Shown: piece by piece, positions 1 to 4,113 of the stretch
How positions within the stretch are numbered: the first letter of the stretch is position 1
Layout: each line of letters starts with the position of its first letter
From: Acidobacteriota bacterium
Lineage (GTDB): Bacteria > Acidobacteriota > Vicinamibacteria > Vicinamibacterales > JAKQTR01
Assembly: GCA_026393675.1 (NCBI GenBank)
Contig: JAPKZQ010000003.1
Location: forward strand, 62,001-126,000
Direction: 5' to 3'
DNA length: 64,000 nt
The notes under the pieces: model-generated
The model's input: only the letters and a program-made list of their open reading frames with translations
Database searches by the model: none
What the model was told of the DNA's origin: nothing
Made by a program: the position numbers and the translations under genes

Positions 1-1
1 C

Positions 2-271
2 GGCGTGCATCGGTTTCGGCGGGGACGCGTGCTGGAAGCCACAGGCAATCGCGCCCGCGCGCTGGTCGATTTCGAACGGGCCCTGCAGGCGCGGCCGGCG
101 CCACCGCCGCCGTTTGTTGCCGGCTCGTTTGTCGCGTGTGGCCGGCTGTACGAAGCCGCCGGCGATCGCACGCGCGCCATCTCGAACTACGAGTGGGCCG
201 CGCGCGTTGCTGGTGCCGACGCGCCGACACACGATGCCGCCACGCAAGCGCTGGCGCGCCTCCGCCGCTGA
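2..271 (+). CDS. TPR-like protein, C-terminal fragment
   Basis: The frame is open from the window edge, so the true start lies upstream and only about the last 90 residues are visible. They contain two helical hairpins of TPR type (an ALVDFERAL-like helix and an AISNYEWAARVAG-like helix, separated by a proline-rich turn), ending in a run of Ala/Leu/Arg. TPRs mediate protein-protein contacts. The partner and the full domain order cannot be seen. The next transcribed unit, a small basic peptide gene, has its own promoter about 100 bases downstream, so the two are probably independent. Confidence 0.6.
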   Translation, partial: GVHRFRRGRVLEATGNRARALVDFERALQARPAPPPPFVAGSFVACGRLYEAAGDRTRAISNYEWAARVAGADAPTHDAATQALARLRR

Positions 272-376
272 TCATCCGCCCGCACGCGTGTCGCATTCGG
301 TCGACAATCGACGCCTCACATCACTCACCGGGCTCGAGGCGTCTGGAGAAATCACTCATCGTACGTCACTTTGTGC

Positions 377-404
377 TTGACATCGCTTTTTTCTCACCGA
401 TAAT
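377..404 (+). promoter_or_regulatory. Strong sigma70-type promoter for the first 17-residue peptide gene
   Basis: A perfect TTGACA (377-382) is followed after 16 bases by GATAAT (399-404), in an AT-richer stretch of otherwise GC-rich DNA. The predicted transcript starts near 411 and carries a leader of about 87 bases to the start codon at 498. Confidence 0.7.
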
Positions 405-497
405 CTACATATTGTATGAGCCTGGATTGCTCAGCCCAGTGCTTGTGATCGTTTGAAGACGGTAACCAGCTGGGCAGCTACAATCCTAGGAGGACAA

Positions 498-551
498 ATG
501 GCGAAGAAGACTGCGAAGAAGGCCACCAAGAAGGCGGCCAAGAAGCGCTAA
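498..551 (+). CDS. 17-residue Lys/Ala-rich basic peptide, copy 1
   Basis: The reading frame encodes MAKKTAKKATKKAAKKR. It is preceded by a full AGGAGG Shine-Dalgarno (488-493), a near-consensus promoter at 377-404, and followed by an intrinsic terminator (569-595), so it looks like a complete monocistronic gene. A second gene at 660-713 encodes exactly the same peptide with seven synonymous third-base differences, which argues strongly that the peptide is translated and conserved. The composition (nine Lys/Arg, no acidic residue, KKAxKK periodicity) resembles histone H1-like tails and small basic ribosome- or nucleic-acid-binding proteins. Function is unknown; nucleic-acid binding is inferred from charge only. 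Confidence 0.75.
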   Translation: MAKKTAKKATKKAAKKR

Positions 552-568
552 GCGCTTCACATCATCTG

Positions 569-595
569 CGGGGGTGGCGTCACCCCCGTTTTTTT
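569..595 (+). terminator. Intrinsic terminator after peptide copy 1
   Basis: The stem CGGGGGTG (569-576) pairs perfectly with CACCCCCG (581-588) around the loop GCGT, followed directly by seven T residues. A second hairpin, CTCCCG/CGGGAG (604-609 with 615-620) followed by TTTT, lies just downstream and may act as a back-up. Confidence 0.9.
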
Positions 596-659
596 GCGCG
601 CACCTCCCGGCAGACGGGAGTTTTCACTCACACTGAACACGCCGAAAGGGGGGATTACG

Positions 660-713
660 ATGGCGAAGAAGACTGCAAAGAAAGCGACGAAGAAGGCCGC
701 GAAGAAGCGTTAG
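660..713 (+). CDS. 17-residue Lys/Ala-rich basic peptide, copy 2
   Basis: It encodes the same 17 residues as the gene at 498-551 (MAKKTAKKATKKAAKKR), but seven codons differ at the third position and the stop is TAG instead of TAA. There are no amino-acid differences. A purine-rich AAGGGGGG tract (646-653) lies 6 bases upstream of ATG, and a terminator follows at 736-765. No clear promoter of its own was found between the copy 1 terminator and this gene, so it may rely on read-through or a weak promoter. Its flanks do not resemble those of copy 1, so this is an old duplication held constant at the protein level. Confidence 0.75.
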   Translation: MAKKTAKKATKKAAKKR

Positions 714-735
714 GCCTTGTTGAGTCGTGAACGCG

Positions 736-765
736 AGGGGGCGGCAGTCGCCCCCTTTGTTTTTT
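736..765 (+). terminator. Intrinsic terminator after peptide copy 2
   Basis: The stem AGGGGGCG (736-743) pairs with CGCCCCCT (749-756) around a five-base loop and is followed by TTGTTTTTT. Confidence 0.88.
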
Positions 766-834
766 CCGCCCTGATTCAAGCCCCGGCCCGGAATGCCGAT
801 TAATCCTGCAGGTCGTTGCATCCGAGGCTGAACC

Positions 835-1920
835 GTGCCAAACGAGATTATCGAACTCGCCCTGAACCAGAAATCCAACGACGACCGGGTGCCCGTGCTG
901 CTCACACTGGCGGACCAGCTGCTGGTGATGATCGGGAAGTACGTGCCCGACTCGTCCTCCCGTCGCGCGCCTGCCGTACGGAACCATGTCGCCGAGTGGC
1001 GCTCGCGGCTGCGCGTGGAGCCCGGCCCCGACGCGCTGTCGGCCGTGGCCGATCAGGTGGTCGCCGACTGCGAGACGTTGCTCGAGAAGGTCCGAATCGA
1101 CCGGGCCGACCGCGAAGCCGAGCTGACCGATCTCATGCGGGTGCTCCGCGAGGTCGTCAATACCTTGCGTGGAGATGCCAGAAAGTTCGAAGCCGAACTG
1201 CAGCGGTCGACCACCGTGATGGAAAGCATGGTCGAGATCCAGGACATCCGCGAACTGAAACGCCAGTTGTCGCGGGAGATCGTCACGCTCAAACAGACCG
1301 TTGCCCGTCGCGAGGAAACCGACGCCAGGCAGTGCGAACTCCTGTCGTCCCGCGTCGAAGCGCTCCAGCAGAGTCTCAAGTCGGCACGAGCCGAGGCGGC
1401 CACCGACCCGCTGACGAGCCTGCCGAACCGCGGGGCGCTCGACGTCGCGCTTCGCGAGTGGATTGCCAGGGCCGCCCGGACCTCCACACCGTTTACAGTC
1501 GCGATGATCGACCTCGACGATTTCAAGCGGATCAACGACAAGCACGGCCACCAGGTCGGGGACCGGGTCATCGTCGCCGCGTCGCAGATTCTCGCTGCCT
1601 GTCTCGAAGGCGGCGACATCGCGGCGCGCTGGGGTGGCGAGGAATTCGCGCTGCTGTTCCAGACCGGGTCGACCGCGAGGGCGCGGGAGCGGCTTACCGC
1701 GTCGCTCGGCCGCATCTCGCCGTCCTACGAGTACGATCTGGGCGGCGAGCGACGGTTCGTCACGTTCACGTTCAGCGGTGGGGTCACGGCGTGGGCCGAA
1801 GGGGACACGCCGGAAGCGATGATCAAGCGGGCGGACAAGGCGCTCTACTCGGCGAAGCGCGCCGGCAAGAAGCGAATCGAGACGCGCTCACGCTCGTTCC
1901 TGCACGCGCTGGTCAGCTGA
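835..1920 (+). CDS. GGDEF-domain diguanylate cyclase
   Basis: A cytoplasmic enzyme expected to make cyclic di-GMP from two GTP. Residues 1 to about 185 are helical, with a long charged coiled-coil-like stretch (about 95-185) and no membrane segment. The C-terminal GGDEF domain starts at a DPLTSLPNR motif and carries the metal-binding IDLDDFKRIND segment and an active-site GGEEF at residues 267-271, so it should be catalytically competent. The inhibitory I-site (RxxD five residues upstream) reads EGGD, so its arginine is missing and product feedback inhibition is probably absent. The start is GTG. The stop codon directly abuts the stop of the convergent HEAT-PPIase gene with no spacer. Confidence 0.9.
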   Translation: MPNEIIELALNQKSNDDRVPVLLTLADQLLVMIGKYVPDSSSRRAPAVRNHVAEWRSRLRVEPGPDALSAVADQVVADCETLLEKVRIDRADREAELTDLMRVLREVVNTLRGDARKFEAELQRSTTVMESMVEIQDIRELKRQLSREIVTLKQTVARREETDARQCELLSSRVEALQQSLKSARAEAATDPLTSLPNRGALDVALREWIARAARTSTPFTVAMIDLDDFKRINDKHGHQVGDRVIVAASQILAACLEGGDIAARWGGEEFALLFQTGSTARARERLTASLGRISPSYEYDLGGERRFVTFTFSGGVTAWAEGDTPEAMIKRADKALYSAKRAGKKRIETRSRSFLHALVS

Positions 1921-4113
1921 CTACTTGACGGTCAATTCGACGCCGTCCCACGTCCGCACCCGGCGGATCATGTCCCACTGCTGCAGCCGATCCACACACT
2001 CCATGCCGGCCACCACGTGGCCGAACACGGTGTAGCGTCCATCCAGATGCGGCTGTGGCGAGTGCGTGATGAAGAACTGGCTGCCACCGGTATCCTGCCA
2101 ATCGAGCGCCATACCCACGGTTCCGCGCAGGAACGGGCGCTCGTTCAGTTCGTCGCGAATCGTGTAGCCCGGGCTCCCCTCGCCATCGCCGCGCGTGTCG
2201 CCGTCCTGCACGACGAAGTTCGGGACGACGCGATGGATGGCCACGCCGGAAAAGGCCCCGCTGCGCGCAAGCGCGAGGAAGTTCGCCGCCGTCAACGGTG
2301 CGTCGAGTACGGCCAGTTCGATTTCGATGGTGCCCTTGTCGGTCTCGATGTACACGTGGGGCGACACCGCTGGCGACACCAGCAATGGCGACGCGTAGCG
2401 GTCGGCCGCGGAGCCGGGAGCCGGGCGGATGGCCGCGCTGAAGTCGGTGGCCGGATCGAGATCGCGTGCGAGCGCAAGCGCTTTCACCCGCACGGCCCAG
2501 TCGCCATCGGTCAGGGCCTGCTTCAGAACCGGCATGGCGGGTCCGGATCCATACTTGGCGAGCGCGCCGAGTGCGGCCGCTCTGGCCTGGTACATGCCGT
2601 CACGCTCGCCCGCGCGGTAGGCCTCGGCCAGGGCGGCTTCCCCTCCGGGGAGCTTCACCTCACCGATGGCGGTCGCCGCCGCCGCCCGGACAATCACATC
2701 GTCGTGCTTGAGCAGGCGAAGGAGGGCCGACCCGATGTCGGGCGGCCGGAACCTGGCGAGGGCCTCGACGGCAGCCGGGATCACCCGCTCGTCCCGGTCG
2801 CCGAGCATCGCGGTCAGGCGCGGCACCGCGACGGCAGGATCCAACGTCCCGACAATCGAGGCCAGGGCGGCCCGGACACTCCAGTGTGGGTCCGCATCGA
2901 GGCCAGACAACACCATGAGGAACGTGTCGGGGTCGACCTGCCGCAGCGCGCGCAAGGCGGCCGCGCGCATGGCCGGCCAGGGATCGGCCGCCAGATCGAT
3001 CAAGCGATCGATCGACCCGGCGTCACCGAGCGCGCCGAGCGCCGCGACGATCTCGAGTCGAAGGCCGGGGTCGAGGAGGCGTGATTGAAGGAGTCCGCGA
3101 ACGACCGAAGCGGCTTCTGGCATGCCCAACTGCCCGAGAGCACGAATCGAAGCGACGGCGGCCCGGGGATCGTCCTGCCAGCCTTGGGCCCGCAGAATCA
3201 GCGCGCCCACGGCACTGCCGTCCTTGATTGTCTGCAAGCCTCGCGCGGCGAACGCGCGCGTCAGACTGCCGCTGCCGCCGACCAGCGTCATCAACGCTGG
3301 CACGAAGCGCTTGTCGTCGGTGCGCGACAGCGCGTACGCGACCGGCCACCACCGGGCCCGCGGCTGCCCTGCCTGGTCGAGAACGACCGACGCGAGTGCG
3401 TCGTACGACTTCAGCCGCGCCAGGGCATAGATACCCAGCCGAAACGCTTCGACGCCAGTCGACTGGGGGTACCTGAGGTCGTCCGGATCGAACGTCGCGA
3501 CGTTGCTGGCAGAAAGATGCCTGGTCGCCATGGCGGCGACGGCCGACGCGGACGCGGCATCCCCGACGAGACCCAGTGCCTCAGCGGCACGTCCCTGCAC
3601 AAGCGGAGACGAATCGTTCAGCGCCGTCCGAAGGGGCTCGATGGCAGCTCGCTGACCGATCAGGCCGAGCGCAAAGGCCGCCATCTGCCTGACTTCAGGC
3701 TCGGCATCGGCGGCAAGAATCTTGGCCAGCGGCTCGATGCCTTCCGCGAGCCCGACGTGGCCGATGGCCAACGCGGCGCGCCGGCGTACGCGCCCCTCGC
3801 CATCGCCGAGCAATCGCACCAGATCTGGCGACGCGACGACCACTGGCGCTGCGCTGCGCGTCCTCCCGGATGCGCGCGTGGCCGCGGAGGGCGTGGTCGA
3901 CACAGGTGGTGGCAGGTCGCGAAGGATCCGCTGATCTTCGAGCCTCAGCATCCACGCGAGTTTCTGCTCGTAGGTTGGTAGCGCCAGCGGCCCAGCCGGC
4001 TGGGCGGAAGCCAGCGCGGCAGCCCCAGCCCACGACATCGCCAGGAAACCGACGCACGTGATGCGGAACCCAAGACGAACGCGGAAAGACGCCCCGCCGG
4101 TTCGGGCGCTCAC
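1921..4113 (-). CDS. Secreted HEAT-repeat protein fused to a cyclophilin-type peptidyl-prolyl isomerase
   Basis: The N-terminus has a basic, then hydrophobic, signal-like segment ending near ALASAQ, so export to the periplasm is likely. Residues from about 85 to 560 are successive HEAT/PBS-lyase-like repeats (for example RRAALAIGHVG, VRAAAATAIGEV), an alpha-solenoid for protein binding. The last 150 residues form a cyclophilin domain with GTIEIEL, FSGVAIHRVVPNFVVQDGD, GGSQFFI and LDGRYTVFGHV, which retain the catalytic Arg/Phe/Gln signature, so it should isomerise Xaa-Pro bonds. At 730 residues it is far longer than a stand-alone cyclophilin. GTG start; it overlaps the MenC-like gene upstream by four bases (GTGA), so the two are translationally coupled. 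Confidence 0.9.
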   Translation of the reverse strand: MSARTGGASFRVRLGFRITCVGFLAMSWAGAAALASAQPAGPLALPTYEQKLAWMLRLEDQRILRDLPPPVSTTPSAATRASGRTRSAAPVVVASPDLVRLLGDGEGRVRRRAALAIGHVGLAEGIEPLAKILAADAEPEVRQMAAFALGLIGQRAAIEPLRTALNDSSPLVQGRAAEALGLVGDAASASAVAAMATRHLSASNVATFDPDDLRYPQSTGVEAFRLGIYALARLKSYDALASVVLDQAGQPRARWWPVAYALSRTDDKRFVPALMTLVGGSGSLTRAFAARGLQTIKDGSAVGALILRAQGWQDDPRAAVASIRALGQLGMPEAASVVRGLLQSRLLDPGLRLEIVAALGALGDAGSIDRLIDLAADPWPAMRAAALRALRQVDPDTFLMVLSGLDADPHWSVRAALASIVGTLDPAVAVPRLTAMLGDRDERVIPAAVEALARFRPPDIGSALLRLLKHDDVIVRAAAATAIGEVKLPGGEAALAEAYRAGERDGMYQARAAALGALAKYGSGPAMPVLKQALTDGDWAVRVKALALARDLDPATDFSAAIRPAPGSAADRYASPLLVSPAVSPHVYIETDKGTIEIELAVLDAPLTAANFLALARSGAFSGVAIHRVVPNFVVQDGDTRGDGEGSPGYTIRDELNERPFLRGTVGMALDWQDTGGSQFFITHSPQPHLDGRYTVFGHVVAGMECVDRLQQWDMIRRVRTWDGVELTVK

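Follow-up and report, generated by a model that had tools for sequence, protein, structure and literature searches.

Paired mini-genes for one lysine-rich 17-residue peptide, and their relatives across the order Vicinamibacterales

The window, as the whole analysed stretch is called here, comprises 64,000 nucleotides of an Acidobacteriota bacterium of the order Vicinamibacterales (GenBank assembly GCA_026393675.1, contig JAPKZQ010000003.1, positions 62,001 to 126,000, forward strand). Close to its start lie two very short open reading frames (ORFs), designated copy 1 and copy 2, which the original prediction had described as separate genes for one 17-residue peptide. Both translate to MAKKTAKKATKKAAKKR, and a re-count gave the predicted seven of 17 sense codons that differ, every change being at the third base, or eight differences when the stop codons (TAA and TAG) are included. 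The promoter claimed for copy 1 was found, and each copy is followed by a terminator stem with a T run, as had been proposed. The purine tract said to mark a ribosome site at each copy held for copy 1 (AGGAGG), whereas copy 2 has six consecutive G instead. The features of the locus are given in Table 1.

Table 1. Features of the mini-gene locus and its neighbours, in window positions
Feature	Position	Strand	Details and basis
TPR-repeat gene, C-terminal part (upstream neighbour)	5..271	+	Pfam TPR
Sigma-70-type promoter	377..404	+	TTGACA-N16-GATAAT; sole sigma-70-like site in 200-900
Conserved 5' leader RNA	411..497	+	Start inferred from -10 position
Shine-Dalgarno of copy 1	488..493	+	AGGAGG; sequence
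Copy 1 ORF	498..551	+	17 aa, stop TAA; ORF translation
Intrinsic terminator 1	568..596 (hairpin 568-589)	+	9-pair stem, loop 4, T7
G-run start signal of copy 2	648..653	+	Run of six G; length 6-7 in most genomes
Copy 2 ORF	660..713	+	17 aa, product identical to that of copy 1, stop TAG; ORF translation
Intrinsic terminator 2	735..764 (hairpin 735-757)	+	10-pair stem, loop 3, T-rich tail
HEAT-repeat/cyclophilin gene (convergent, syntenic anchor)	1921..4113	-	Pfam HEAT_2, Pro_isomerase

The two copies differ in how they are introduced. Among 70 genomes with two copies, a canonical Shine-Dalgarno precedes copy 1 in 65 and copy 2 in only seven, whereas the longest G run ahead of copy 2 is 6 or 7 in 58. 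This G run, of the form GAAGGGGGGGATAA, stands at the expected Shine-Dalgarno position, and 79 of the 162 order genomes contain the copy-2 start pattern GGGGGAT-N1-9-ATGGCNAARAAR. The contrast between the two start signals is consistent.

The promoter was identified in a scan of positions 200-900, in which 0.1 sites were expected, and matches at 11 of 12 positions. Its order-wide form is GTGCTTGACA-N6-TTTTCTCATCCATAATCTACATC, present exactly in 49 of 162 genomes with one site each, and a relaxed form followed by a K-rich ORF was found in 113 genomes, with a spacer of 16 in 111 of them. Terminator-like hairpins lie 3' of copy 1 in 35 of the 70 two-copy genomes, 3' of copy 2 in 53 of the 70 and 3' of single ORFs in 48 of 60, as against 11 of 600 control windows. 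The scan of the window gave no second promoter ahead of copy 2, and in family f5 the only promoter found ahead of the single ORF is the same conserved one, so copy 2 is probably transcribed by read-through past terminator 1.

Between promoter and copy 1 lies the leader, which is conserved across the order over about the first 45 bases past the -10 element (consensus TACATCTGGTATGAGGGTGGATGGCTCAGCCCACCTGTTGTGA). Its helix GCTCAGC/GCTGAGC, which in the window is formed by GCTCAGC (429-435) with GCTGGGC (469-475), closes just upstream of the ribosome site and pairs in 87.6 % of cells. For the whole fold, in an alignment of 89 leaders that was fitted to the proposed structure, 80.7 % of cells pair as against 25-43 % in slid versions, 85 cells are altered on both sides against a shuffled mean of 35, and the covariation score is 0.206 against at most 0.063 in slid versions. 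The folding z-score of the window leader is -2.05, and those of individual leaders are unremarkable (-0.4 to -2.5); RNAalifold on a plain MAFFT alignment of all leaders gave almost nothing. The fold is therefore regarded as probable, mainly on conserved pairing and covariation in the structure-fitted alignment. An H-type pseudoknot (TGAG/CTCA with GGTGG/CCACC) was set aside by eye in favour of the long-range helix because TGAG is not kept in several families.

The end of the TPR gene also lies upstream of the locus in G001, a genome of the same genus. The convergent neighbour in the window is a fusion of HEAT repeats to a cyclophilin domain; of 162 genomes of the order, 159 have homologues of its C-terminal part, and the gene was used as the anchor for collecting peptide loci, also where sequence patterns failed. 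In the window, copy 2 and the cyclophilin gene are separated by a GGDEF diguanylate cyclase gene (835-1920) that is co-directional with the pair. Such an arrangement was seen only in the window genome (G000), and in G001 the cyclophilin match starts 183 bases past copy 2.

A search of relatives for the peptide and for tandem copies, as the original prediction had proposed, found the exact peptide pattern in all five examined genomes of the window's family; it did not occur in any of the 35 genomes sampled from elsewhere in the order. At least one lysine-rich mini-ORF lies beside the convergent HEAT-cyclophilin gene in 131 Vicinamibacterales genomes, 70 of which have two copies; on both counts the pair is not a chance occurrence. 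The collected loci cover 14 of the 15 sampled families, and in the remaining one (f7) a pattern search showed two copies. Of 193 genomes of the class, 102 have mini-ORFs ending in KKR, and every one of these belongs to the Vicinamibacterales; the 31 genomes from other orders lack the mini-gene pattern. In 396 genomes sampled across the phylum, the sole match outside the order was one Glu-containing, A-rich ORF, which was taken as a chance match.

The number and size of the ORFs vary within the order. In the window's family, G003 lacks copy 2, and G002 has in its place (L003:1692-1850) a 52-aa K/A protein ending in GCKAC, with a weak Hc2/H1-like match. A single ORF with a copy-2-type start is found in f5 (25 of 27 genomes), f10 and most of f11, with promoter and leader kept where readable. 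At L030, L037, L093 and other f5 and f10 loci, the promoter and leader persist with the copy-2 start signal, the copy-1 ORF being gone. Family f8 has one longer ORF of 35-65 aa, or none (genera g19, g81-g83 and g86). The 14 f8 genomes with no peptide locus beside the cyclophilin gene (L155, L159-L161, L168, L174, L179, L184, L186, L190, L193, L198-L200) form a natural knock-out set, and no compensating protein with the KK-repeat pattern was found in genomes that had lost the locus.

Collected peptides number 202 and range from 14 to 65 aa, mostly 16-17 aa. They consist of 49 % K, 28 % A, 7 % G and 5 % R, contain no D, E, F, W, Y or H, and have a net charge of +0.33 to +0.67 per residue. MAKK begins 195 and KKR ends 183 of the 202; lysine pairs recur every 3-4 residues and length grows by KK-xx units, with GG/GA replacements and added units tolerated. 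For example, MAKKTAKGGKKKGGKKR is present twice in f15 and f3, MAKKAKKAKKAKKR twice in f2 and MAKKGGGKKKGGKKR twice in f13, and 23 of 27 f5 genomes encode one constant 16-aa peptide. A pattern search of the window genome gave no other KKxxKKxxKK array, which leaves the pair as the sole source of chains of this type in that genome. An open-literature search found no account of the peptides, although a paper elsewhere is possible, and this family of tiny basic peptides from a soil and lake order is apparently undescribed.

The ORFs are under strong purifying selection, as had been proposed from the window pair. The eight f1 copies are separated by at least 10 changes, 10 synonymous and none nonsynonymous (P ~1e-6), and in the 23 f5 genomes with one 16-aa peptide all 7 changes are silent. 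In other groups, among them f15/f3 and f2, 10-21 changes are silent and 1-8 are replacements, against an expected silent share of one quarter (minimum counts; P from 6e-5 to 1e-8). Where the ORFs differ in length, the reading frame is kept. Together with the Shine-Dalgarno of copy 1, the excess of silent change and the in-frame length changes make strong sequence evidence that the ORFs are probably translated.

The agreement between the two peptides of a locus goes beyond family resemblance, since both are identical in 17 of the 70 two-copy genomes against a mean of 7.7 on within-family shuffling, and none of 10,000 shuffles reached 17. In 47 four-gene comparisons, which are non-independent and so give a direction only and no P value, 117 silent-site columns group by copy and 14 by genome, whereas 30 amino-acid columns group by genome and 17 by copy. 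Gene conversion is an unlikely source of the identity, because it would have made silent sites alike too, and these follow the copy. In f15, where most relatives have Thr at residue 5, both copies encode Ser in G041 (AGC and AGT) and in G047 (AGT and TCG); the two do not group as sisters in the cyclophilin tree, where support values are modest. Peptide identity alongside silent sites that follow copy orthology points to selection on the peptide rather than on gene identity, and suggests that the two copies share a role for which selection maintains a single sequence.

In their K/A-rich low complexity, even positive charge and length variation by repeat units, the peptides resemble Chlamydia Hc1/Hc2, Bordetella BpH1 and the Pseudomonas AlgP tail (PMC2848022, PMC9239181). 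The lysine-rich chain of Hc2 binds DNA and varies in length by K-rich units (PMC2848022), and the lysine-rich tail of AlgP binds DNA and is also found at polyphosphate granules (PMC9239181). Those are proteins of ~165-350 aa or their tails, whereas the present peptides are mostly 14-20 aa, free-standing and in tandem, with their own start signals. Profile scans covered the 65-aa and 52-aa variants, the 17-aa peptide being too short to scan; HC2 (Pfam PF07382) gave 19.1 and 21.5 bits against a cut-off of 40, and the H1-like profiles NF038052 and NF038053 gave 19.4 against 135 and 21.5 against 80 bits. Because these longest variants fall far below the curated cut-offs, the family was not filed under Hc2/H1-like proteins. 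The K/A repeats with evenly spread charge that mark HC2-type chains are present across the 202 peptides, which may by analogy work like an Hc2/H1-like protein, while the weak Hc2 matches are expected from low-complexity K/A composition alone. Lysine repeats are also attached to DNA-binding proteins in actinobacterial HU and topoisomerase I (PMC11229371, PMC7398561); there they form the tail of a folded protein, whereas in Vicinamibacterales the repeats are the whole gene product.

The composition, the near-consensus promoter and the terminators suggest high-level expression and a nucleic-acid- or ribosome-binding role, much as originally predicted. Disordered chains with dense lysine pairs are expected to bind polyanions through polyelectrolyte behaviour. 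As the peptides carry a lysine pair every 3-4 residues on what appears to be a disordered chain, they would be expected to behave in this way, and a coating or compacting action on DNA, RNA or some other polyanion is their most likely role. A strong housekeeping-type promoter and structured leader would yield a short mRNA on which copy 1 would be translated from a good Shine-Dalgarno and copy 2, beyond a leaky terminator, from the G-run start signal. The regularly spaced lysine pairs would bind DNA, RNA or polyphosphate, and the bound peptides would help to compact or neutralise these polyanions much as an H1/Hc2/AlgP-type lysine tail does, but in miniature and as a free-standing chain. A probability of roughly 0.55 is assigned to this reading as a whole, namely that the ORFs are genuine genes whose translated products are order-specific, short, disordered polycations that bind and compact polyanions like a mini H1-type tail. 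Some findings count against it. HU genes are present in the window genome, so there is no obvious vacant nucleoid role for DNA compaction, and the peptide was rejected as an HU replacement; and the f8 genera with no locus indicate that it is dispensable.

The main rival to polyanion binding is a lineage-specific, very short ribosomal protein held in an rRNA cavity, like eL41, bS22 and bL37, with the leader acting as an autoregulatory site of the kind found on r-protein mRNAs. The peptides share with those proteins a very short, highly basic and lineage-restricted form, their size and charge being near those of eL41 and bS22, which have 55-65 % positive residues (PMC10085706), and the order-wide conservation with a structured 5' leader and the shared sequence of both copies would also fit. 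The known proteins are fitted to an rRNA site, whereas simple KK-xx repeats in variable number are encoded here by two gene copies. Length is not constant within the lineage but spans 14-65 aa in one order through KK-xx additions, unlike a chain fitted to one rRNA pocket, and this variation disfavours a ribosomal protein; the peptides also lack aromatic or structured residues, and part of f8 lacks the locus. On balance this explanation is considered unlikely. A secreted or intracellular antimicrobial or other cationic effector would likewise be small and cationic, and bS22 and bL37 have antimicrobial side activity (PMC10085706), but no export or immunity gene is evident beside the locus, the KKxxKK sequences have no hydrophobic face, and the locus is single, conserved and housekeeping-like, leaving such an effector barely credible.

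Two further explanations place the function in the RNA. Were the locus a conserved regulatory RNA with incidental or secondary ORFs, the conserved leader, and its retention with the promoter in f5 and f10 despite loss of ORF 1, would be accounted for; yet one peptide ORF is retained in both families, and the ORFs vary freely at third positions and change length in frame, which also disfavours the untranslated-RNA alternative named in the original prediction. A known RNA family was rejected, as Rfam gave no match in window positions 1-3000 at the gathering score and nothing credible in 360-780 at a permissive threshold. Overall, a regulatory RNA is considered very improbable. Lys codons directly 5' of an intrinsic terminator, twice in a row, would suit attenuator leader peptides at which ribosome stalling controls the terminator behind each ORF. 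This was rejected as highly improbable because relatives have no co-directional downstream gene to regulate, the next gene being the convergent HEAT-cyclophilin gene and the GGDEF gene being peculiar to the window genome; moreover, GG/GA replacements and added units are tolerated, and half of the pairs have no terminator 1.

What is new in the polycation genes is their tandem, matched and minimal lysine-rich format. It is a tentative proposal, held at somewhat less than even odds, that free-standing polycations of 14-20 residues act as a histone tail with no histone attached, that a single structured mRNA with two different initiation signals yields them as a matched pair, that selection rather than gene conversion keeps the two identical, and that they rank among the smallest conserved bacterial protein families. 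An order-wide family of this kind can escape notice, since genes of 14-20 codons are too short for annotation thresholds and standard proteomics has difficulty in detecting what they encode. If the peptide is a stand-alone lysine tail, it offers a minimal natural system for the effects of charge and spacing alone on bacterial chromatin, ribosomes or polyphosphate, and the matched pair is a case of paralogues that keep one protein sequence without homogenisation of their DNA.

A phage origin of the locus was rejected, with no match in phage records. Two records titled Acidimicrobiia and Bifidobacterium breve (L228 and L230) carry the locus and are probably misnamed genome bins, matching the order members G023 and G054. 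Free-standing 17-aa ORFs of the form MAKKKAKKK(T/A)KKKSKKR were also found in two Phycisphaerales contigs (L226:819-872 and L240:440-493), which have a promoter-like stretch upstream in common and a conserved hairpin-rich 3' stretch. Their context is unrelated to that of the Vicinamibacterales locus, which suggests that the same kind of gene arose there independently.
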